Positions 48,811-63,925 of a stretch of DNA of 64,000 bases are shown in pieces (position 1 is the stretch's first letter; every line of letters starts with the position of its first letter). Made by a program: the position numbers and the translations under genes. The stretch is from positions 548,460 through 612,459 of the forward strand of contig PHAT01000005.1 of the NCBI GenBank assembly GCA_002840435.1, in the 5' to 3' direction. The notes under the pieces are model-generated. The model made no database searches, had not been told where the DNA came from, and saw only the letters and a program-made list of their open reading frames with translations. The DNA comes from Deltaproteobacteria bacterium HGW-Deltaproteobacteria-6 (GTDB lineage: Bacteria > Desulfobacterota > Syntrophia > Syntrophales > Smithellaceae).

Positions 48811-51498
48811 TCACGAAAGATTCAGCAGCATGGAAACCATGTTTTCATCCTTAGCGTCCAGGGCAAAGTCGCAGCGGCGGAAGATATTGATCATGGCGTA
48901 ATTTTGCAGAATCGTTTCCGCCCGGATGGCCTTGTATCCTTCCTTTCTGGCCAGCTCAATGCACTGCCGGGACAGGGTAGCGCCCAGATACCGATGCTGC
49001 CAGGGATCGGAAACGATAATGGCATATTCCGCTTCGCCCGCGCAGCGTTTGTTTTTGATCAGACGGGCGATGCCGAGAAACTTATACTGATCACCGACCT
49101 TCATTTCCGCGACAACGGCGACTTCTTCTTCCGGATTGAGATTGCAGAAACGCTGCGCCCGTTCCGGCGTGGCGGAAAACGGCGCCAGAAACCGCAGCCA
49201 CAGGGATTTTTCGGAACAGCCATTGACAAAATCCGTCCACAGGCCGACATCTTTGTGATTGAGCAGTCTGAGGCGCACGGGATTGTTATCCACCGACAGC
49301 GTGTCGCAGGTCAGGTGGCGGGCGATGGAATCGGCAATGGCGCTCTGCCTCCTGACACCGTAATGATACATCTGCCCCAGCACCTCCGCCGCCATTTCGG
49401 CCGTGGAATATACCGGGAAGCCGGCCTGTTCCATTTTCATCACATCGTTGATCATGAATTCCTTGCAGGCCACCACGCACATCACCGGCTTTTCCTTATA
49501 GTCGATGCTCTTCATGACGTCGACAAACGAACCCAGGATCTCACCCTGAATCACAACGATAAAACTCGCCACGTCGCCCGATTCCACGCCGATTTCAATG
49601 AGATCCTTCACCTGCCCGGGCGTCATGGAAAACGAACAATCAATCGGATTGCCAATGCTGGCATAATCGGGCAAAACATTCTTTAAACGCTTTTCAAAAT
49701 AAGGTTCCAGGGTGGCCAGACGCATATCGGAAAGGTACAGCATATCGGTTGCCGCGACACCCAGCGAACCGGTATACGTGATGACTAAAACCCCGTTGCC
49801 TCTCGGAACAGGCTGTTTGGAAAAAGCCCGCGTCAGCGCGAAAAGATGTTCATTGTCCCGGGCCCGGATGACGCCGCTCTGCCGGAAGGCCGCGTTGTTC
49901 ACTTCATCATTGCCCGCCAGCGATGCGGTATGCGAGGACACGGCTTTTTTACCGGCTTCCGTCCGTCCCGATTTCAACACGATGACCGGTTTGCGCATCG
50001 CCGCCCTTGTTGCCACATCGACAAAACGCTTGCCGCTGCGGATGTCTTCCATGTACATGACGATGACGGAGATATGATCATCATTGCTCAGATACTCCAG
50101 AATATCCGTTTCATTGATGTCCATCTTGTTGCCGATTGTCGCCACAATGCCGAAATCAAGCACGTTGCTCAATCCGGTGAGAATTCCCGCGGCGTAAACA
50201 CCGGCCTGGGCCACCATCCCGACATTCCCTTTTTTCAGATCGGAAAGCAGCCCGATGGACTGCACCATGTTGTGATGGGTGTTAATGACGCCGGAACAAT
50301 TGGGGCCGAGCACGCGGCAGCCATGCTCGTGAATGATTTTCAGAATTCTTTCCTGAGCCTGCTTGCCTTCCTCGCCGCTTTCGGCGAACCCCGCCGCCTC
50401 CACGACGATAAACCGGACGCCCTTTTCAGCGCAATCGGCAATAGCCGACTCAACCGCTTTGGCCGGAACAATGACAATGGCCAGATCCACGGGACCCGGC
50501 ACATCACGGATCGACTTGTAGGCCCTGATGCCCAGCACGGAATCCTTATACGGATTGATCGGGTAGAGTTTGCCCGGAAAATCGTGGCTCAGCAGATTCC
50601 AGAAAACGTTGTAACCCAGTTTTATTTTGACATCGGAGGCGCCGATCACCGCGATGCTCTGAGGATAAAAGAAATCGTGCAGGCTTTCCCTGCCTGCTGC
50701 CGCGACGTTTTCATGCGGCGCGGGCTCGGTGACAAACATCCGTGCGTCGACGGTAACATAGCCATCCGGGTAGAGAAATAACGGGTTGATATCCAGTTCG
50801 CTGATTTCCGGATTCTCCTCAACCAGCCGGGAGATTTTCAAAAGCAGTTGTTTGAGCGAGTCCAGATCAACGGTCTGACCGCGGTACCCCTTCAGAATAT
50901 CCGAACCACGGATATCATCAATCATCTGGGCTGCGTCTTTTTCGGTGATCGGCAGAATGCGGAACGATACGTCGCGCAAAACTTCGACAAAAACGCCTCC
51001 CAAACCGAACATAATCAGGGGGCCGAAGCTGGGATCGCGCGCTACGCCGATGATGGCTTCGATGCCCGCTTTGGCCATCCGTTGCACCGCAACGCCTTCG
51101 ATATGCTGATATTTGAAAGTTTCCAGAATGTCACGGTAGGCGCAGCGGACGGCTTCGGCGCTCATCAAATTGAGTTTAACGCCGCCGGCGTCCGTTTTGT
51201 GAACAACATCCGGTGAAACGATTTTCATCACCACGGGAAACCCGATTTTATCGCAGATGGCCAGCGCTTCGTCCTCGGAGCGGGCCACCAGGTACCCCGT
51301 CGTGGGGATGCCGATGCCTTCGAGGATTTCCTTGCTTTCATGTTCCATCAGGTAGCTGCGGTTGTCCCGAACGGCCTGATGGATAATCTCAGCTAACCCG
51401 TCCTGCAAAAGTTTGCCCTTTGTTGATTCCGGCGCCATCCGGGTGACAAATGTTCCCGATGACGCCCGCGGTGATCCTGAGCATGTCCTTTCCATCAT
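48811..51498 (-). CDS. ADP-forming acyl-CoA synthetase (beta-alpha order) fused to a GNAT domain
   Basis: The 895-residue protein starts with an ATP-grasp beta domain (about 30-260, KEILEGIGIPTTGY and VVHKTDAGGVKLN). The CoA-binding and succinyl-CoA-ligase-like alpha domains follow (about 285-720, IAVIGAS, LGPNCSGVIN, GNVGMVAQAG). It ends with a GNAT domain (about 735-890). The phosphohistidine is retained in SSHTASLAGND, so energy-conserving acyl-CoA + ADP + Pi = acid + ATP chemistry is plausible. In the Pat/PatZ acetyltransferases the order is alpha-beta-GNAT, so the domain order here is different. A GGGGGAGAA precedes the double ATG at 51498. It may make ATP from acetyl-CoA and acetylate partner enzymes. 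Confidence 0.88.
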   Translation of the reverse strand: MMERTCSGSPRASSGTFVTRMAPESTKGKLLQDGLAEIIHQAVRDNRSYLMEHESKEILEGIGIPTTGYLVARSEDEALAICDKIGFPVVMKIVSPDVVHKTDAGGVKLNLMSAEAVRCAYRDILETFKYQHIEGVAVQRMAKAGIEAIIGVARDPSFGPLIMFGLGGVFVEVLRDVSFRILPITEKDAAQMIDDIRGSDILKGYRGQTVDLDSLKQLLLKISRLVEENPEISELDINPLFLYPDGYVTVDARMFVTEPAPHENVAAAGRESLHDFFYPQSIAVIGASDVKIKLGYNVFWNLLSHDFPGKLYPINPYKDSVLGIRAYKSIRDVPGPVDLAIVIVPAKAVESAIADCAEKGVRFIVVEAAGFAESGEEGKQAQERILKIIHEHGCRVLGPNCSGVINTHHNMVQSIGLLSDLKKGNVGMVAQAGVYAAGILTGLSNVLDFGIVATIGNKMDINETDILEYLSNDDHISVIVMYMEDIRSGKRFVDVATRAAMRKPVIVLKSGRTEAGKKAVSSHTASLAGNDEVNNAAFRQSGVIRARDNEHLFALTRAFSKQPVPRGNGVLVITYTGSLGVAATDMLYLSDMRLATLEPYFEKRLKNVLPDYASIGNPIDCSFSMTPGQVKDLIEIGVESGDVASFIVVIQGEILGSFVDVMKSIDYKEKPVMCVVACKEFMINDVMKMEQAGFPVYSTAEMAAEVLGQMYHYGVRRQSAIADSIARHLTCDTLSVDNNPVRLRLLNHKDVGLWTDFVNGCSEKSLWLRFLAPFSATPERAQRFCNLNPEEEVAVVAEMKVGDQYKFLGIARLIKNKRCAGEAEYAIIVSDPWQHRYLGATLSRQCIELARKEGYKAIRAETILQNYAMINIFRRCDFALDAKDENMVSMLLNLS

Positions 51499-51861
51499 GT
51501 TCTCCCCCTCATGTGTTTTCCCCTCGTTTTTTTTGTTCCGCAACCAAACAATGCGGAACACGAACACGATAGCGGATTAGCACAGGCGTTGGAAAGATTA
51601 TATCGGCTGAGGGCTGATTTACATGTCAGAATGATGCCGGGGCATATGACGGATTCTGTCCGACAGGCTGTCAGACGAATATTCGGATTCTTCCCGCGCC
51701 TTCGGCGGATTCGGAATAACATGCATTTTGTCACTTCGATCCCGGCATAAGCGGGGTCCTGCTCCGGGAGAAGTCTAAAATCGGGTCTGCAAAAAGGCAT
51801 CTCCCCGGCATGCGCCGGGCTGTCGCCTGCGGTCGATATGGCAATGTGGGGCAGCGCAAGA

Positions 51862-54237: not shown

Positions 54238-55572
54238 CTACTTTCCTTTAACCCATATTTTCATTTTGTCAGCCTGTCTGATTAGTTCATCCTGGAAGTC
54301 AGGGTGGGCGATGCCAATCAGCGCGTCTGCTCTTTCCCAGGTGGATTTGCCGCAAAGCTTGGCGATGCCGTATTCCGTTGCCACATACTGAACGATGGAA
54401 CAGGGCACCGTGACAATCGACCCCGGCCCGAGGGTTGGGACGATTTGCGAATGCAGCTTCCCTTTTTTGTCCCTGTATGTTGAATTCAGATACATGATGC
54501 CCTTGCCGCCGTGGGACCGGAAAGCGCCTGCAATAAAATCCAGCTGGCCGCCTGTGCCCGGTTGTCGGCTGTTTTCCATGGATTCCGAGCAAACCTGTCC
54601 GTGAAGATCCACTTCGACGGCATTGTTAATCGCTACGACTTTGTCGTTTCGGGCAATTATTTTCGGATCATTGATATAATCGGCGGGATACGAAGCGCAG
54701 GCCGGATTGTGATCGAGGAAATCATAGAGTTTTTTTGTGCCCATGGCAAAGCTGTAGGCCATCTTGAAGGGGTCAACCGATTTTCTTTTGCCGGTGATCT
54801 TGCCGGCCTGATATAAATCAACGCAGGAATCGGTAAGCACATCCGTATGAATGCCCAGGTTCTTCAAACTGCTTTCGGCAATCATCCGGCCGATGAGAGC
54901 GGGCAGAGCGCCCTCTCCCAGCTGGAGACAGGCTCCGTCTTCAATTTCTTTCATGATATGCCCGGCAATCCGCCGCTCGGTTTCTTCAGGCGCCGCAGGT
55001 TCAAATTCGGCCAGAGGGGCGTTTTGGCCTTCCACAATATAATCAATTTTGGAAATATGAACCGACTCACGATTTCCGCCGTAGCAATACGGAACTGATT
55101 TATTCACTTCCAGAATGATGGTTTTTGATTTATCCAGAACAGCATCAGTCATTGCATTGGCAATCCCGTAGTTGAAATAACCGTTTTTGTCCATTTCGGC
55201 TACCGTGATGAAAGAGACGGCAAAATCATGGTATTGTCTGATGGTTCGGGGGCCCTGATGATAACAGGCGGGGATGTCATTACACAGATTACGATCATGG
55301 AGGCCGCGGGATACGCTTCCGGAATGCCAATCCTTCATAATGACATGCTCGCGCCTGGGGTCCGCTTCCACAATTTTGGGCGCACGCGAAAAACAGACGC
55401 CCTGGAGATCAATGTCTCTCAAGAGATGAATTTGCCTGGATAACGCTGCATCCAGAGCGTCGGGAAATAAAACTGACCCGCTGTAAAAAATTTTGTCGCC
55501 GTACTTGATAAAACTTGCGGCTTCATCAGCCGAAATCAACTTTTCCGTGTATTGCGTGTCTATATCCTTCAT
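54238..55572 (-). CDS. Class I CoA-transferase paralog with Asp at the expected catalytic Glu
   Basis: The 444-residue protein is a close full-length paralog of the product of 33600-34931 (same YHQGPRTIR, FITVAEMDKNGYFNYG and GTGGQLDF segments). Two sites differ. The glycine loop LQLGIGGLPN is LQLGEGALPA here, and the segment GIHTEM with the expected catalytic glutamate is GIHTDV here (D244). It may have altered acid specificity, act as a hydrolase, or be inactive. A 19-bp palindrome shared with acs lies 116 bp upstream of the start. GGAG precedes the ATG at 55572; the longer frame to 55614 lacks a site. Confidence 0.85.
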   Translation of the reverse strand: MKDIDTQYTEKLISADEAASFIKYGDKIFYSGSVLFPDALDAALSRQIHLLRDIDLQGVCFSRAPKIVEADPRREHVIMKDWHSGSVSRGLHDRNLCNDIPACYHQGPRTIRQYHDFAVSFITVAEMDKNGYFNYGIANAMTDAVLDKSKTIILEVNKSVPYCYGGNRESVHISKIDYIVEGQNAPLAEFEPAAPEETERRIAGHIMKEIEDGACLQLGEGALPALIGRMIAESSLKNLGIHTDVLTDSCVDLYQAGKITGKRKSVDPFKMAYSFAMGTKKLYDFLDHNPACASYPADYINDPKIIARNDKVVAINNAVEVDLHGQVCSESMENSRQPGTGGQLDFIAGAFRSHGGKGIMYLNSTYRDKKGKLHSQIVPTLGPGSIVTVPCSIVQYVATEYGIAKLCGKSTWERADALIGIAHPDFQDELIRQADKMKIWVKGK

Positions 55573-55643
55573 ATCCGGTCTCCATTTAAAGCTCGGGCTC
55601 TTCCGCTGCGGCAATTGAATACATTCTTTAAATGATTAGCGGT

Positions 55644-58101: not shown

Positions 58102-59283
58102 ATGAGAGAAGTAGTTATTGTCAGTGGTGCCAGGACAGCAATCGGAGATTACATGGGGACGCTTTCAGGTTTCACTCCTGTTCAGCTGGGCGTGACGGTC
58201 TTAAATGCGGCCATCGCCAAGGCCGGTATCGATAAAAAGCTGGTCGAAGAAGTGGTTGCCGGTCAGTGCAATCAGGCCGGTGCGCCGGGAAACAGCGCCC
58301 GTCACATTGCTCTGGGTGCGGAGCTGCCGGTGGAATCCTTCGCTTTTACAGTTCATCAGCAGTGCCCCTCTTCCATGCGCGCCTCCGAATTGCTGTCGCA
58401 GGAAATTATGCTGGGCAAAATTGACATCGGAGCAGTGGTCGGCATTGAAAGCATGAGCAACGCGCCTTATCTGCTCTTCGGCGCCCGTAAAGGCTACCGG
58501 CTGAACGATGGTGAAAAGATTCAGGACAGCTTGATGATCGGCGGTCTGGTTGATGCAATGCTGGGTTATCACATGGGGATCACGGCGGATAACATTGCCG
58601 ACCAATACAAAATTTCCCGCCAGGAGCAGGATGAATGGGCATTGATGAGCAATCAACGCGCCTGCGCCGCCATCAAAAACGGCTGGTTCAAGGATGAAAT
58701 CGTTCCTGTCGAAGTTAAAACAAGAAAGGGAATGGTCATGTTTGATACCGATGAACATCCCAAAGCGGACACCAGTATGGAGTCTCTGGGCAAACTGAAG
58801 CCGGTCTTCAAGAAAGACGGCACGGTCACGGCAGGAAACGCCTCCGGGTTGAACGACGCCGGTTCCTGCATGATCATGATGAGCGCCGAAAAGGCCAAAG
58901 AACTGGGTGTGAAACCCATCGCCCGTGTTGTTTCTTCCGCCCCCGGTTCCGTCGAGCCCCGCATCATGGGCATGGGCGTTGTTCCGGCTGTTCACAACGC
59001 GTTGAAATTCGCCAAAATGAAACTGGCAGACATCGATTACTTTGAATTCAACGAAGCTTTTGCCGCCCAGGTCATCGGCTGCAATCGCGAATTGAAGATT
59101 CCGTTGGACAGAATCAACGCCGTAGGTTCGGGCATCAGCATGGGCCATCCGGTCGGCGCCACCGGCGCTCGCCTGATCATCACCATGATCAACGAACTCA
59201 AACGCCGCGGCAAGAAATTCGGCTGCGCGTCCCTGTGCGCCAGCGGCGGTCCCGGTCATGCGTTTATTGTAGAAGCCCTTTAA
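58102..59283 (+). CDS. Thiolase family protein (acetyl-CoA acetyltransferase) with a variant C-terminal loop
   Basis: The 393-residue thiolase has the nucleophilic C88 in VHQQCPSSMRA, the histidine in MGHPVGATGAR and the second cysteine C379. The loop after C379 is CASGGPG, where most thiolases have CxGGG, so a glycine of the C-terminal signature is shifted. It probably makes or cleaves acetoacetyl-CoA or a related 3-ketoacyl-CoA. AAAGGAAA precedes the ATG. A strong terminator separates it from the 4-hydroxybutyryl-CoA dehydratase gene, although both are on the plus strand. Confidence 0.88.
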   Translation: MREVVIVSGARTAIGDYMGTLSGFTPVQLGVTVLNAAIAKAGIDKKLVEEVVAGQCNQAGAPGNSARHIALGAELPVESFAFTVHQQCPSSMRASELLSQEIMLGKIDIGAVVGIESMSNAPYLLFGARKGYRLNDGEKIQDSLMIGGLVDAMLGYHMGITADNIADQYKISRQEQDEWALMSNQRACAAIKNGWFKDEIVPVEVKTRKGMVMFDTDEHPKADTSMESLGKLKPVFKKDGTVTAGNASGLNDAGSCMIMMSAEKAKELGVKPIARVVSSAPGSVEPRIMGMGVVPAVHNALKFAKMKLADIDYFEFNEAFAAQVIGCNRELKIPLDRINAVGSGISMGHPVGATGARLIITMINELKRRGKKFGCASLCASGGPGHAFIVEAL

Positions 59284-59385: not shown

Positions 59386-59413
59386 GCGTTGTGACAAAAT
59401 TGGGACACAACGT
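59386..59413 (+). promoter_or_regulatory. Inverted repeat directly ahead of the abfD ribosome binding site
   Basis: CGTTGTG (59387-59393) and CACAACG (59406-59412) are perfect complements with a 12-nt loop, ending 2 bp before AGGAGG. It could be an operator or a leader hairpin that affects ribosome access. A TTGACA at 59339-59344 lies upstream, but its -10 partner is poor. Confidence 0.45.
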
Positions 59414-59426
59414 CAGGAGGAATCAA

Positions 59427-60887
59427 ATGGCACTTAAAACGCCCGAGCAGTACGAAGAAAGTCTGCGCAAAATGAATTTTAAAATTTACCTGATGGGAGA
59501 ACTGGTGACAAATTGGGTTGATAATCCGATTATTCGTCCTTCCATGAATTCCGTCAAAAAGACCTATGAACTGGCGCAAAAGCCGGAATATGAGGATCTG
59601 ATGACGGCCACCTCGCACCTTACCGGAGAAAAAATCAACCGCTTTACGCATCTTCACCAGAGCACGGAAGATCTCGTGAAAAAAGTCAAAATGCAGCGGC
59701 TGCTGGGTCAGCAGACGGGTTCGTGTTTTCAGCGTTGCGTGGGTATGGATGCCACAAACGCGGTGGACAGCACCACGTATGAAATGGATCAGAAACTCGG
59801 TACGAAATATCATGAACGCTTCATCAACTTTTTGAAAATGGTTCAGAAAGAGGATCTGACGGTGGACGGCGCGATGACGGACGTCAAGGGAGACCGTGGT
59901 TTGGCCCCCCATCAGCAGGCCGATCCGGATATGTTTGTCCATGTCGTAGAAAAGAATGACAAGGGCATTGTTGTGCGCGGCGCCAAAGCCCATCAGACCG
60001 GCGCGGTGAACTCCCATTGGATTTTAGTCATGCCGACCATCGCCATGAGCAAGGAAGATGCGGACTACGCCGTATCCTTTGTGTGCCCGGCGGATGAAAA
60101 AGGCATTTTTTACATTTACGGGCGTCAGTCCTGCGATACGCGCAAGCTCGAAGGCGGCACGATTGATGTAGGTAACCAGGAGTTCGGTGGCCATGAAGCC
60201 CTGATGGTCTTTGATAATGTTTTCATTCCCTGGGAAAACGTTTTGATGTGCGGTGAAACCGAATTTTCCGGCATGCTGGTCGAACGCTTTGCCGGTTACC
60301 ATCGTCAGAGCTACGGCGGCTGCAAGGTCGGCGTGGGCGACGTGCTGATCGGCGCGGCGGCTACGGCGGCGGATTACAATGGCGCAGCGAAGGCTTCTCA
60401 CGTCAAAGACAAATTGATCGAGATGACGCATTTGAACGAAACCTTGTTTTCGTGCGGCATTGCCTGTTCCGCGCAGGGCCATAAGACGGCGTCCGGCACG
60501 TATCTGATTGACCTGCTTTTGGCCAACGTCTGCAAGCAGAATGTCACCCGTTTCCCCTACGAAATTTGCCGTCTGGCCGAAGATATCGCGGGCGGCATGA
60601 TGGTTACCATGCCTTCCGAACAGGATTTCAAGAATCCGGAAATCGGCAAGGTTCTGGAAAAATACATGCAGGGCAACGCCAATGTTTCCTGTGAGGACCG
60701 CTCGCGGATCATGCGCCTGGTGGAAAACCTCACGCTCGGTACGGCGGCCGTCGGCTACCGCACGGAATCAATGCACGGCGCCGGATCGCCTCAGGCGCAG
60801 CGCATCATGATCGCCCGTCAGGGTAATCTGGAGCAGAAGAAAAAGCTGGCCAAAAAAATTGCCGGCATCAAGGAAGAAAAGAAATAA
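59427..60887 (+). CDS. abfD: 4-hydroxybutyryl-CoA dehydratase / vinylacetyl-CoA isomerase
   Basis: The 486-residue FAD and [4Fe-4S] enzyme dehydrates 4-hydroxybutyryl-CoA to crotonyl-CoA by a ketyl-radical mechanism. All four cluster ligands are visible: C100 and C104 in GSCFQRC, H292 and C299 in YHRQSYGGC. They fall almost exactly at the positions known for the Clostridium aminobutyricum enzyme (C99, C103, H292, C299), which separates it from flavin hydroxylases of the same superfamily. The RGAKAHQTGA flavin segment follows the family. AGGAGG precedes ATG 59427. It lies next to the AOR-ADH fusion gene and near a CoA-transferase, a context that fits 4-hydroxybutyrate metabolism. Confidence 0.95.
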   Translation: MALKTPEQYEESLRKMNFKIYLMGELVTNWVDNPIIRPSMNSVKKTYELAQKPEYEDLMTATSHLTGEKINRFTHLHQSTEDLVKKVKMQRLLGQQTGSCFQRCVGMDATNAVDSTTYEMDQKLGTKYHERFINFLKMVQKEDLTVDGAMTDVKGDRGLAPHQQADPDMFVHVVEKNDKGIVVRGAKAHQTGAVNSHWILVMPTIAMSKEDADYAVSFVCPADEKGIFYIYGRQSCDTRKLEGGTIDVGNQEFGGHEALMVFDNVFIPWENVLMCGETEFSGMLVERFAGYHRQSYGGCKVGVGDVLIGAAATAADYNGAAKASHVKDKLIEMTHLNETLFSCGIACSAQGHKTASGTYLIDLLLANVCKQNVTRFPYEICRLAEDIAGGMMVTMPSEQDFKNPEIGKVLEKYMQGNANVSCEDRSRIMRLVENLTLGTAAVGYRTESMHGAGSPQAQRIMIARQGNLEQKKKLAKKIAGIKEEKK

Positions 60888-60898
60888 TCTGCAAAGCA

Positions 60899-60930
60899 TG
60901 CAGGGCGGTCAGTGTCCCGGCCGCCCTGCA
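60899..60930 (+). terminator. Hairpin after abfD
   Basis: TGCAGGGCGG and CCGCCCTGCA are perfect 10-bp complements around a 12-nt loop, followed by CGCTTCCTTTC. The T-run is weak. It starts 11 bp past the stop codon and so splits abfD from the AOR-ADH gene. Confidence 0.65.
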
Positions 60931-61004: not shown

Positions 61005-61034
61005 TTGACTTGCCTCCTGTTTCTTCATTATACT
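61005..61034 (+). promoter_or_regulatory. Sigma-70 promoter for the AOR-ADH fusion
   Basis: TTGACT (61005-61010) and TATACT (61029-61034) are separated by 18 bp. The -10 box ends 41 bp before the ATG. This gives the fusion its own transcript. Confidence 0.7.
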
Positions 61035-61075: not shown

Positions 61076-63925
61076 ATGAAAATCCTGCGCGTATCCATGA
61101 ACAATCAAAAGGTATCATCCGAAAATCTTCCGTCAGACTGGACCTACCTGGGCGGCAGCGCTCTGATTGCCAAAATCCTGAATAAAGAAGTACCTCCGCT
61201 TTGTGATCCGCTAGGCCCCGAAAACAAATTGATTATCGCCTGCGGCCCGCTGGCCGGAACCCGCGCACCGCAACTGGGGCGCGTTTCCGTCGGCGCGAAG
61301 AGTCCTTTGACCCAGGGAATCAAGGAAGCCAACTCCGGCGGTCCGGCCGGCCAGTATCTGGACCGCCTGGGCCTGCGCGCCATTATTTTTGAAGAAGCAC
61401 CCAGAGACGGAAAACTGTATTGTCTTTTCATCAGCAGGGACAAAGCGGAACTGATTCCGGCGGATGAGTACCGCGGGATGAAAAATTACGAACTGGTTTC
61501 TGCGATTCATCAAAAATATTCCGATAAGGTCGCGGTGATCTCCACGGGACTTGCCGGGGAGCGTCAATATAAGGGTGCTTCCGTATCGCTCACCGATATT
61601 TTCGGTGATCCGTCACGCAACGCCGCGCGCGGCGGTTTGGGCGCGGTCATGGGTTCCAAGGGGCTCAAGGCCATTATTCTCGATCCGGCCGGGGCGGAGC
61701 AGGTCGCGATTGCCGATCAGGACGCCTTCCGCAAAACCGTCCGCGAATGGGCGGATATTTTAAAACACGACGTCAGCATCAGTTTGTATTCCCGTTTCGG
61801 CACGCCCTTTGCCATAACGAATTCCGCCGGCCACGGCTCGCTCCCGGCGATGAATTACCGTTCCGGCCGTCCCGAAAATTTTACGGCGGTGAGCGGCAAC
61901 AACATCCAGAAAATCCTTTTCGAACGCGGCGGCAGGATGCATGGCTGCATGCCGGGCTGCCTTGTCCAATGTTCTATTATCTATCCGGATAAAAACGGTA
62001 AAAGAATATGCGCCGCCTATGAATATGAAACCATCGCGCTTCTGGGCACCAACCTGGGCATTACCGATAATGATGCCATCGCGCGATTGAAGTTCATGTG
62101 CGACGATATCGGACTCGACGGCATTGAAGCCGGAAGCGCACTGGGTGTGGCCGCCGAAGCGGGCAGGATGAAATGGGGAGATGCACAAAGCGCCGAAAAT
62201 CTTCTGCAGGAGATTGAAAAGGAGACGCCACTCGGATTCGCATTAGCCAACGGCGTAGTGACAACGGCCCGCTTCCTGAACGTCGATCGGATTCCGGCTT
62301 TTAAGGGTCAGGCTCTTCCCGCCCATGATCCCCGCGCGGTAAAGGGCACGGGCGTGACGTACTTCTCGTCTCCGATGGGCGCGGATCACACGGCTGGTCT
62401 CACCTATCGACAGCCCAAAGAAAAGAAAGAACAAATCCAGACGTCGCTTGCCACGCAGATCAAGGCGGCGGCCTGTGACGCCTTCGGTTATTGCCTCAAT
62501 GCCGTTCCCGGCGGCGAACCGGTTTATCCTTTTTTCGCCAAACTGATGAATGCGCGCTTCGGCCTCACCATGACGGAAGAAGCCGTCATCGACGTTGCCA
62601 AACAGGCGCTTCGCGATCAGCTGGCTTTCAATGAAAAAGCCCAGTTCAGCAAAATCGATACGAAGATTCCGGCCTTCTTCCGCGAAGAACTGATCGCTCC
62701 GACCAGTTCCGTCTTTGATGTCAATGAAGCGGAGGTGAAAGATTTGTGGAAGGGCCTCGATGCATTCAGGGAAAAAGAAAAAGTCTGGGAGATCCGCATC
62801 CCGCCGATGCCGGACATTCTGATGGGCGAAGGTGTGGCCCGGTCGATGGGGAAAAAAATCAAAGCATTGAAAGTTACCAAGGTGTTTCTGGTCACGGACC
62901 CGTTTATGTTGAAAAGCGGCCGCGCGGCGGAAGTTCAGGACATCCTGAAAAAAAGCGGGATTGAAACCTATATTTTCTCGGAAGTGGAACCGGATCCACC
63001 CATCGAGCTCATCGAAAAAGCCGGCGCGCTTTATAAAGAAACGGGTTGTGACGGCATCCTGGGCCTGGGCGGCGGCAGTTCGCTGGATACCGCCAAAACA
63101 CTGGGACTGCGCGTCACCCATGGCGGCGACATGCGCGAGTATGAAGGCATTGTCGGCGGCGGCGGCAAAATCAAACCGATCTTTCCGCCGATCATCTGCA
63201 TGCCGACCACCTCGGGCACCGGCAGCGAAGTCAATCCCTGCGCCGTTCTGACCGACAAGGCCAGAGATTTGAAATTCATTTTAATGAGCAATCACTTTAT
63301 TCCCAAACTGGCGGTCGTTGACCCGCTCTTCACCAAAACCATGCCGCCTGGACTGACCATCGAATCCGGCATTGACGCCTTATCGCATTGTATCGAAGGC
63401 AGTGTGTCGCTGGCCACGCCTTATCACCCTTACTTCGAATCCAAAGCGCTTTTCGGCGTCAAACTGATTGGCCGTAGTCTGATCACGGCTTACAAAGAGC
63501 CGGACAATATGCGCGCCCGGACGGACATGTGTATGGCGGCCATCTGCGGGGGAATCGCCTTCCTCAAAGGGCTGGGGCTTGGACATGCCCTCACCCACGC
63601 CATCGGCGCCCACTATCACCTGCCGCATGGCAGAGCGGCCATCTTCGGTCTTCTCGGTTTCGTTATCGCCAATAAGGAAACCTGCAGGGAGGCCTTTATG
63701 GACATGGCTTATCTGATCAACCGGTCGGATGATCTGGAATCGGCGCTTAGGTGGCTTTATGGGGAATTGAATATTGACCTGCGGCTCAAAGCCCACGGCA
63801 TCAGCAAGGAAGCGCTCAAAGAAATTGCTTTTTATACATCACGCGACGCGGTGAACATGGCCACCGATCCGACATCACCCAGTCAGTCCAGAATTCTGGA
63901 GATCCTCACGGCGATGTATGAATAA
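61076..63925 (+). CDS. Aldehyde:ferredoxin oxidoreductase fused to an iron-type alcohol dehydrogenase
   Basis: A single 949-residue frame joins two enzymes. Residues 1 to about 565 are a tungstopterin aldehyde oxidoreductase (GGSALIAKIL, ANSGGPAGQYL, RNAARGGLGAVMGSKGLKAI). Its [4Fe-4S] ligands read C291-x3-C295-x3-C299 plus C473 (FGYCLN), the spacing of YdhV-like members and not the classical Cx2Cx3C. Residues about 570-949 are a complete iron-type alcohol dehydrogenase: cofactor loop GLGGGSSLDTAK, TTSGTGSE, and metal ligands in GIDALSHCIE and GHALTHAIGAHYHLPHG. The joint protein could take a carboxylic acid to an alcohol, or the reverse, using ferredoxin and NAD(P)H. A succinate-semialdehyde/4-hydroxybutyrate role is inferred from abfD next door. 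AAGGAGG precedes the ATG. Confidence 0.92.
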   Translation: MKILRVSMNNQKVSSENLPSDWTYLGGSALIAKILNKEVPPLCDPLGPENKLIIACGPLAGTRAPQLGRVSVGAKSPLTQGIKEANSGGPAGQYLDRLGLRAIIFEEAPRDGKLYCLFISRDKAELIPADEYRGMKNYELVSAIHQKYSDKVAVISTGLAGERQYKGASVSLTDIFGDPSRNAARGGLGAVMGSKGLKAIILDPAGAEQVAIADQDAFRKTVREWADILKHDVSISLYSRFGTPFAITNSAGHGSLPAMNYRSGRPENFTAVSGNNIQKILFERGGRMHGCMPGCLVQCSIIYPDKNGKRICAAYEYETIALLGTNLGITDNDAIARLKFMCDDIGLDGIEAGSALGVAAEAGRMKWGDAQSAENLLQEIEKETPLGFALANGVVTTARFLNVDRIPAFKGQALPAHDPRAVKGTGVTYFSSPMGADHTAGLTYRQPKEKKEQIQTSLATQIKAAACDAFGYCLNAVPGGEPVYPFFAKLMNARFGLTMTEEAVIDVAKQALRDQLAFNEKAQFSKIDTKIPAFFREELIAPTSSVFDVNEAEVKDLWKGLDAFREKEKVWEIRIPPMPDILMGEGVARSMGKKIKALKVTKVFLVTDPFMLKSGRAAEVQDILKKSGIETYIFSEVEPDPPIELIEKAGALYKETGCDGILGLGGGSSLDTAKTLGLRVTHGGDMREYEGIVGGGGKIKPIFPPIICMPTTSGTGSEVNPCAVLTDKARDLKFILMSNHFIPKLAVVDPLFTKTMPPGLTIESGIDALSHCIEGSVSLATPYHPYFESKALFGVKLIGRSLITAYKEPDNMRARTDMCMAAICGGIAFLKGLGLGHALTHAIGAHYHLPHGRAAIFGLLGFVIANKETCREAFMDMAYLINRSDDLESALRWLYGELNIDLRLKAHGISKEALKEIAFYTSRDAVNMATDPTSPSQSRILEILTAMYE

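Follow-up and report, generated by a model that had tools for sequence, protein, structure and literature searches.

Can a single polypeptide naturally combine an aldehyde:ferredoxin oxidoreductase (AOR) with an iron-type alcohol dehydrogenase (Fe-ADH), and what would such an enzyme do? The locus that raises this question lies in a 64,000-nucleotide stretch of contig PHAT01000005.1 from Deltaproteobacteria bacterium HGW-Deltaproteobacteria-6, which we analysed as a whole and call the window. The original prediction had recognised there a natural fusion of the two enzymes in one 949-codon frame, with both halves complete and their cofactor and metal motifs intact. We find that the fusion is real, conserved and uncommon. 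Its product is probably a bifunctional CoA-free carboxylic acid/aldehyde/alcohol oxidoreductase, linked to ferredoxin at one site and to NAD(H) at the other.

The gene is directly preceded by AAGGAGG, as read in the sequence, and its product contains four Pfam domains in the order listed below, all of which exceeded the Pfam cut-offs. Residue numbers are those of the fusion protein unless marked PfAOR.

61076..63925, + strand: AOR-ADH fusion gene; one uninterrupted open reading frame of 949 aa with an ATG start and a stop at its 3′ end; 32 other distinct full-length homologues
61079..61681, + strand: AFOR_N domain, residues 2-202 (Pfam E 4.6e-58)
61742..62695, + strand: AFOR_C domain, residues 223-540 (Pfam E 1.7e-47)
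62696..62812, + strand: junction, residues 541-579 (the selection test took in 541-578)
62813..63325, + strand: Fe-ADH N-terminal, NAD-binding domain, residues 580-750 (Pfam E 3.4e-47)
63356..63919, + strand: ADH_Fe_C, the C-terminal metal domain, residues 761-948 (Pfam E 2.8e-31)

The fold was predicted with AlphaFold2 as a monomer from a 42-row alignment, giving a model with a mean predicted local distance difference test score (pLDDT) of 88.6 and a predicted template modelling score (pTM) of 0.84. In structural comparison, residues 1-563 superposed on AOR 1aor (Z 46.0, root-mean-square deviation [rmsd] 2.0 over 546 residues) and also matched 9g7j (Z 46.1) and 9mqx (Z 46.5), while residues 571-949 superposed on the Fe-type methanol dehydrogenase 8zwd (Z 55.5, rmsd 1.7 over 372 residues). 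The ADH half (568/571-949) matched the ADH part of AdhE 6scg as well (Z 51.5). No single chain spanning both halves was among the matches listed. The high pTM for two large domains suggests that the halves would adopt a defined mutual arrangement. The genome itself contains a single copy of the fusion; seven further matches to the query cover one half only, and one of these is an AdhE-sized protein of 873 aa that matches in its ADH part.

A scan of genome contigs identified 46 loci encoding a relative. Apart from the window, 32 distinct full-length copies span both halves at 56-88% identity and read through the same junction, and no stop or frameshift was seen near codons 565-575. Together with the Pfam domains and the fold, these copies bear out the predicted fusion. 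Because dS exceeded 0.9 in every pair, the dN/dS ratios between the window and its homologues are rough; they were 0.047-0.094 in the AOR half (7/7 pairs), 0.052-0.099 in the ADH half (six pairs) and 0.051-0.122 at residues 541-578 in six of the seven pairs, the L055 pair being saturated. This substitution pattern clearly argues for a junction that is translated and under purifying selection.

Nearly all full-length copies come from deltaproteobacterial metagenome-assembled genomes (MAGs) whose record titles read Smithella, Smithellaceae, Syntrophaceae, Desulfobacteraceae or similar. Exceptions in the record titles are Proteobacteria (L059) and single partial copies from Spirochaetota (L067) and Dehalococcoidia (L073). 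We distinguish the window's own set of fusions (clade A) from a second set (clade B) that is described below. At least 17 of the 395 sampled genomes of the phylum, the window's own included, carry either fusion (13 clade A and 4 clade B), a lower bound since two candidates were scored per genome in a sample of genomes. The 13 include one copy with an internal stop (G416) and two partial copies (G353 and G137), and the 4 include one partial copy (G295); a likely clade-A fragment in G261 was left out of the count. Among the 51 genomes of the family, 13 matched across both halves, 4 had broken copies or copies cut by a contig end, and 2 matched in the AOR only. Elsewhere, the fusion frame is split at L053 and L074 and interrupted by a stop within the ADH part at L160; such copies are MAG errors or pseudogenes. 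One locus (L040:6929-12847) contains a tandem pair of fusion genes of 968 and 980 aa as called, with 76 bp between them. Long frames around standalone AORs in two genomes (G102 and G317; L151 and L152) were considered as extra fusions and rejected as over-extended frames, since they contained Pfam AOR domains only.

The residues of the AOR half were compared with those of PfAOR and across the rows of the AOR alignment.

61802..61804, + strand: T243, aligns with PfAOR Thr243; 39/39 clade-A rows
61946..61972, + strand: [4Fe-4S] ligand motif C291-x3-C295-x3-C299; Cys in 39/39 clade-A AOR rows
62027..62029, + strand: E318, aligns with PfAOR Glu313; 39/39 clade-A rows
62324..62326, + strand: H417, replaces PfAOR Tyr427; His in 39/39 clade-A rows, Tyr in 4/4 clade-B rows
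62387..62389, + strand: H438, aligns with PfAOR His448; 39/39 clade-A rows
62492..62494, + strand: C473, counterpart of the fourth cluster Cys in PfAOR; clade A, one row gapped

In PfAOR the fourth ligand of the cluster is Cys494. All four cluster Cys (C291, C295, C299 and C473) are present, and by its domains, fold and Cys ligands the AOR half belongs to the WOR/AOR family. The Cx3Cx3C motif is there as predicted, and the attribution of this half to a little-studied branch holds up. The motif is not, however, specific to the fusion: it occurs in 39/39 clade-A and 4/4 clade-B fusion rows and also in 56/68 standalone rows, the remaining 12 having Cx2Cx3C, which rules it out as a hallmark of the fusion. 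The spacing is a trait of the wider AOR subfamily. An exchange in which one Cys was lost and another gained, as read from a first alignment with PfAOR, gave way in a wider alignment to a one-residue shift in spacing.

His417, which the original prediction had missed, is a more telling feature than the Cx3Cx3C motif and bears on function. His also occupies this position in 5/5 sister standalone AORs and 6/6 of the next group, whereas Tyr is found in 51/51 other ingroup standalone rows; six distant rows are split between 3 His and 3 Tyr. Most WORs that oxidise aldehydes share a set of four conserved residues, of which Tyr427 is one (PMC13328260). The counterparts of Thr243, Glu313 and His448 are present in the fusion and that of Tyr427 is not; because of His417 we do not class this half as a typical aldehyde-oxidising AOR. 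At one homologue (L157), a ThiS-family gene, a type called WorX in PMC13328260, precedes the start of the fusion gene by ~110 bp; its position there is suggestive with regard to tungstopterin binding.

The ADH half has the Asp-His-His-His ligands, the GGGS loop and the fold of an Fe-ADH (group III ADH). By Pfam and fold, both halves are complete, as predicted.

63068..63082, + strand: GGGSS nucleotide-binding loop, residues 665-669
63374..63628, + strand: metal ligands D767, H771, H837 and H851; no deviation in 41 fusion ADH rows

D608 aligns with the Asp that favours NAD over NADP in FucO. Every NCBIfam model listed for the fusion protein matched below its cut-off, including the 4-hydroxybutyrate dehydrogenase model NF058672 (230.6 bits against a curated cut-off of 500).

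To place the fusions, we built an AOR tree of 111 rows (by a quick search, in which long branches were flagged) and an ADH tree of 73 rows, leaving out truncated and duplicate rows. On the AOR tree, the 39 rows of clade A grouped together (support of 100 in the Shimodaira-Hasegawa-like approximate likelihood ratio test, SH-aLRT), next to standalone AORs (L145-L149) that are 51-54% identical. Clade B comprises L141-L144 from four genomes, confirmed as fusions by Pfam for L141 and L142 and by phmmer for L143 and L144. It is ~38-41% identical in the AOR half and was placed among other standalone AORs, distant from clade A. Constraining the two clades together on this tree was rejected (p = 4.4e-5 in the approximately unbiased test). 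The AOR half, and not the ADH half, would thus support two fusion events, with exchange of one half as the alternative.

Split gene pairs were also found. A same-strand Fe-ADH gene lies within 700 bp upstream of the AOR gene in 5/44 standalone loci (L145-L148 and L190-L229, the latter in rank order with some skipped). Two of these (L228 and L229) had been chosen since their ADH was already spotted, so that the frequency is 3/42 among the rest; L211, with its ADH on the other strand, was not counted. Four of the five neighbouring ADHs (L203, L214, L228 and L229) form a group with the ADH halves of clade B (SH-aLRT 96). In a Spirochaetia MAG (L081:1-3103), too, Fe-ADH and AOR are encoded by separate genes, with 35 bp between them. 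When genes lie adjacent or fuse repeatedly, this is a classical sign that they share a function. As the join has apparently arisen repeatedly, its benefit is probably that a reactive aldehyde is handed on without loss.

In the mechanism that we favour, the WOR-type half would use a metal bound by a pterin, probably tungsten, to interconvert acid and aldehyde, and would pass electrons to or from ferredoxin via the [4Fe-4S] cluster, as its fold and residues suggest. The ADH half would then use NAD(H) and an iron or zinc centre to interconvert aldehyde and alcohol by hydride transfer, in keeping with its fold and invariant ligands. A common electron path between the halves is not visible, and because they share no redox centre beyond their own active sites, the coupling is most likely chemical, via the shared aldehyde. 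The aldehyde hand-over and ferredoxin/NAD(H) coupling proposed in the original prediction are plausible. The fusion would work like AdhE with an AOR replacing the CoA-dependent aldehyde dehydrogenase (ALDH), so that free acid would be handled without CoA activation, and it would stop a scarce and toxic aldehyde from escaping.

The direction would be set by the ferredoxin and NADH state of the cell. Oxidation of alcohol to acid feeding acyl-CoA metabolism may be somewhat the more likely; it would yield NADH and reduced ferredoxin and fits the acyl-CoA ligase found after 3/4 clade-B fusions. An organic acid or alcohol of short or medium size, tied to beta-oxidation, is the probable substrate, 4-hydroxybutyrate/succinate being one candidate in the window's genus. 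For the reductive direction, the acetate/acetaldehyde couple lies at -580 mV against -400 mV for ferredoxin (PMC12727526). With this couple and ferredoxin at -400 to -500 mV, simple arithmetic gives an equilibrium aldehyde:acid ratio of ~1e-6 to 2e-3. Milder acid/aldehyde potentials have been given, from -520 to -560 mV (PMC10816221) and about -500 mV (PMC13328260), and would ease the limit imposed by aldehyde scarcity. Removal of acetaldehyde by AdhE doubled acetate reduction by AOR in vitro (PMC10816221), and the fusion would provide such removal locally.

The genes around the fusion bear on its substrate. The following features precede it in the window.

48811..51567, - strand: putative acyl-CoA synthetase, ADP-forming type (ATP-grasp_5, Succ_CoA_lig)
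54238..55614, - strand: CoA-transferase/hydrolase family (best NCBIfam model butyryl-CoA:acetate type, below cut-off)
58102..59283, + strand: thiolase (TIGR01930 above cut-off)
59391..60887, + strand: 4-hydroxybutyryl-CoA dehydratase, AbfD type (best PDB match 1u8v, 772 bits)
60899..60930, + strand: terminator-like hairpin, 3′ of the AbfD gene and 5′ of the fusion gene (consensus match only)
61005..61034, + strand: promoter-like site 5′ of the fusion gene (10/12 matches, consensus match only)

The order in the window is the ADP-forming-type synthetase, a histidine kinase and regulator, the CoA-transferase, an AMP-binding ligase, thiolase, AbfD and the fusion; 3′ of the window, the genome continues with a thiamine pyrophosphate (TPP) enzyme and a zinc-type oxidoreductase. 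Neighbours were counted at loci whose flanks extend to 5 kb or more, leaving out the window's own locus. AbfD lies within 5 kb in 6/7 loci of the genus, 0/29 other clade-A loci, 1/3 clade-B loci and 0/55 standalone AOR loci, and the 29 clade-A loci outside the genus rule it out as a constant partner of the fusion. The clade-B case is an AbfD fragment at a contig end (L143:2-958), 70% identical to the window's and 2.45 kb from the fusion on the opposite strand. AbfD relatives are numerous in general, with 8 matches in the window's own genome at E ≤ 1e-40, itself included, and matches in 48/51 family genomes. The TPP enzyme is within 5 kb in 6/7 genus loci and in 0/29, 0/3 and 0/55 of the other clade-A, clade-B and standalone loci, respectively. 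Its best PDB matches are benzoylformate decarboxylases, which are weak (126 bits), and NCBIfam names the L036 relative acetolactate synthase large subunit (633.5 against a cut-off of 363). At L082:3479-5032 a TPP enzyme gene lies directly 3′ of the fusion, and at L146:10601-13041 a standalone sister AOR is followed by a TPP-enzyme-like protein, as judged by eye, and a 4Fe-4S dicluster-domain protein.

An acyl-CoA dehydrogenase of 611 aa (best PDB matches 8pns, 315 bits, and FadE5 6kse, 247 bits) lies within 5 kb in 5/7 genus and 6/29 other clade-A loci (11/36 in total), 0/3 clade-B loci and 0/55 standalone loci. A second genus has a different set: succinyl-CoA-ligase-type genes (by Pfam on L044), a carboxyltransferase, an OAD-beta-type subunit, the fusion, an acyl-CoA dehydrogenase, an enoyl-CoA hydratase and SdhA. 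At two clade-B loci (L141 and L142) the fusion stands between DUF1302, DUF1329, YCF48-like and MMPL genes and an acyl-CoA ligase; DUF1302/DUF1329/MMPL sets often accompany hydrophobic compounds. The ligase is 3′ of the fusion at L141, L142 and L144, the L144 contig starting within the fusion gene, and at L143 none of DUF1302, DUF1329, YCF48-like, MMPL or ligase was found by similarity. As a constant clade-A neighbour the acyl-CoA ligase was rejected: the clade-B-like type is within 3 kb in 1/37 clade-A loci (L073) and 2/55 standalone loci and, under the 5-kb flank filter, in 0/36 clade-A loci, where the window's own ligase type occurs in 1/36. Pfam also identified an AMP-binding ligase 3′ of the fusion in L057 and a class III CoA-transferase 5′ of it in L071. 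Overall, the context points to acyl-CoA metabolism with, as far as gene content can tell, no single substrate.

Several other explanations were weighed. That an assembly or sequencing error joined two genes might be suspected from the broken MAG copies (L053, L074 and L160); this is refuted by the 32 distinct full-length copies and by a junction dN/dS of 0.05-0.12 in 6/7 pairs, which leave it practically no probability. Electron confurcation, in which ferredoxin and NADH together drive one reaction, had been suggested for the window's protein, and one structurally similar WOR (9mqx) is titled electron-bifurcating. Class IV WORs, however, need WorABC (PMC13328260). Pfam identified neither a flavin domain nor an additional Fe-S domain in the fusion protein, and no WorABC-like module was found in the 12 flanking proteins of its own genome that the search covered, so that this part of the original prediction falls away as very improbable. 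An aldehyde-scavenging dismutase, in which both halves consume the same aldehyde, made nearby, and detoxify it to acid (with ferredoxin) and alcohol (with NADH), is an unlikely candidate. The TPP enzyme would supply the aldehyde, given its position in 6/7 genus loci and 3′ in the window's own genome, and enzymes of the benzoylformate decarboxylase type can release aldehydes. Against this, no TPP gene was found near any of the 29 other clade-A loci, the PDB match is weak, and acetolactate synthase, the above-cut-off name of the L036 relative, would not release aldehyde. Detoxification has been proposed as a role of Class I WORs (PMC13328260).

Rather unlikely, too, is that the AOR half has diverged from ordinary aldehyde oxidation towards another substrate or direction, for example acid reduction or a non-aldehyde substrate. 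The distribution of His417 (all clade-A, sister and next-group rows, against Tyr in the other ingroup standalone and clade-B rows) is consistent with such divergence, as are the conservation of Tyr427 in most aldehyde-oxidising members and one WOR without detected aldehyde activity (PMC13328260). Yet T243, E318, H438 and the cluster Cys are retained, half of the six distant rows have His as well, and joining the AOR to an aldehyde/alcohol enzyme makes little sense without aldehyde chemistry. Within the bifunctional oxidoreductase that we favour, a succinate/4-hydroxybutyrate enzyme is a sub-case that we hold possible rather than probable. Its AOR half would interconvert succinate and succinate semialdehyde, its ADH half the semialdehyde and 4-hydroxybutyrate, and the product would feed the neighbouring AbfD. 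The AbfD-type gene adjoining 5′, the CoA-transferase close by, the AbfD genes near 6/7 genus loci and the L143 fusion, and the succinyl-CoA-ligase-type genes and SdhA in the second genus all fit such an enzyme. Succinate semialdehyde is accordingly a possible substrate, but this neighbour is nearly confined to the genus: AbfD is near none of the 29 other clade-A loci, yet has relatives in 48/51 family genomes with or without the fusion. In addition, the 4-hydroxybutyrate dehydrogenase model scores less than half its cut-off, and the terminator-like and promoter-like sites part the AbfD gene from the fusion gene.

A number of observations also weigh against the bifunctional oxidoreductase itself or against its repeated origin. 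Most of the 395 sampled genomes manage without either fusion. Neighbourhoods vary, with 11/40 loci in the largest neighbour cluster, and the acyl-CoA dehydrogenase is not near 25/36 clade-A loci, nor in the part of the window's own locus examined. The substitution of His417 for Tyr may have altered AOR activity; activity, metal and substrate are all predicted from sequence and model, and the predicted arrangement of the halves comes from a monomer model. The case for two origins rests on a quick-search AOR tree with long branches, and a single fusion origin was not rejected on the ADH tree (p = 0.516). Moreover, the split pairs run ADH then AOR; as this order is opposite to that of the fusion, the fusion is not a simple loss of a stop codon. 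It is a tentative and rather doubtful extension of our reading that two independent joins of tungsten-type AOR and Fe-ADH produced CoA-free, aldehyde-channelling AdhE analogues in which the acid-alcohol step is freely reversible with ferredoxin and NADH, and whose His417 branch is tuned to the reduction of unactivated acids.

When AOR reduces unactivated acids directly, the thermodynamic scarcity of the aldehyde product sets a limit, and the AOR-ADH fusion is a natural test case of whether passing the aldehyde on overcomes this limit. It is relevant to alcohol and acid use by syntrophs and sulfate reducers, and might be of use as an acid-to-alcohol catalyst in a single polypeptide.

No description of an AOR-ADH fusion was among the matches listed in the open-access literature, a body of text that most subscription papers and preprints lie outside; such negative evidence is weak support for novelty. 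In 2026 WORs were sorted into a scheme of five classes (PMC13328260), in a paper whose main text contains neither 'alcohol dehydrogenase' nor 'fusion' and describes neither an ADH-bearing class nor this architecture. Within that scheme, Class I WORs (PfAOR, GAPOR, BmWOR and CsWOR87) have the same fold and most of the same active-site residues as the fusion; a Class I WOR is a single WorL with no adjacent subunit (PMC13328260), whereas the fusion has an Fe-ADH attached and His in place of Tyr427. The Class IV bifurcating WOR and Class III AorABC resemble the fusion in linking a WOR catalytic subunit to NAD(H). They reach NAD via Fe-S and flavin subunits (PMC13328260), whereas the fusion would use NAD(H) at a separate catalytic site. 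Another AOR fusion in print is AOR-MoaD of Azoarcus (PMC1779556), whose partner is a small sulfur-carrier domain and not an enzyme; the term 'alcohol dehydrogenase' does not occur in that paper. The ADH half has the fold and metal site of Fe-dependent methanol dehydrogenase, FucO and 1,3-propanediol dehydrogenase, at ~26-31% identity over the aligned part.

The two-protein AOR and ADH pathway of Thermoanaerobacter X514 and Clostridium autoethanogenum follows the same route from acid to aldehyde (with ferredoxin) to alcohol (PMC10816221, PMC12727526), but with separate proteins and a free aldehyde between them, where the fusion is one chain. The closest parallel in design is provided by AdhE and BdhE, independently evolved ALDH-ADH fusions with presumed channelling of the aldehyde (PMC12454647); the main text of that paper mentions neither ferredoxin nor tungsten. 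The fusion shares with them an N-terminal aldehyde-forming enzyme, a C-terminal Fe-ADH, two steps to the alcohol and, apparently, repeated independent fusion. It differs in having a WOR-type AOR and, by Pfam, no ALDH domain, which makes it an analogue and not a member of that family. The convergence published for AdhE and BdhE would thereby extend to a different enzyme class.

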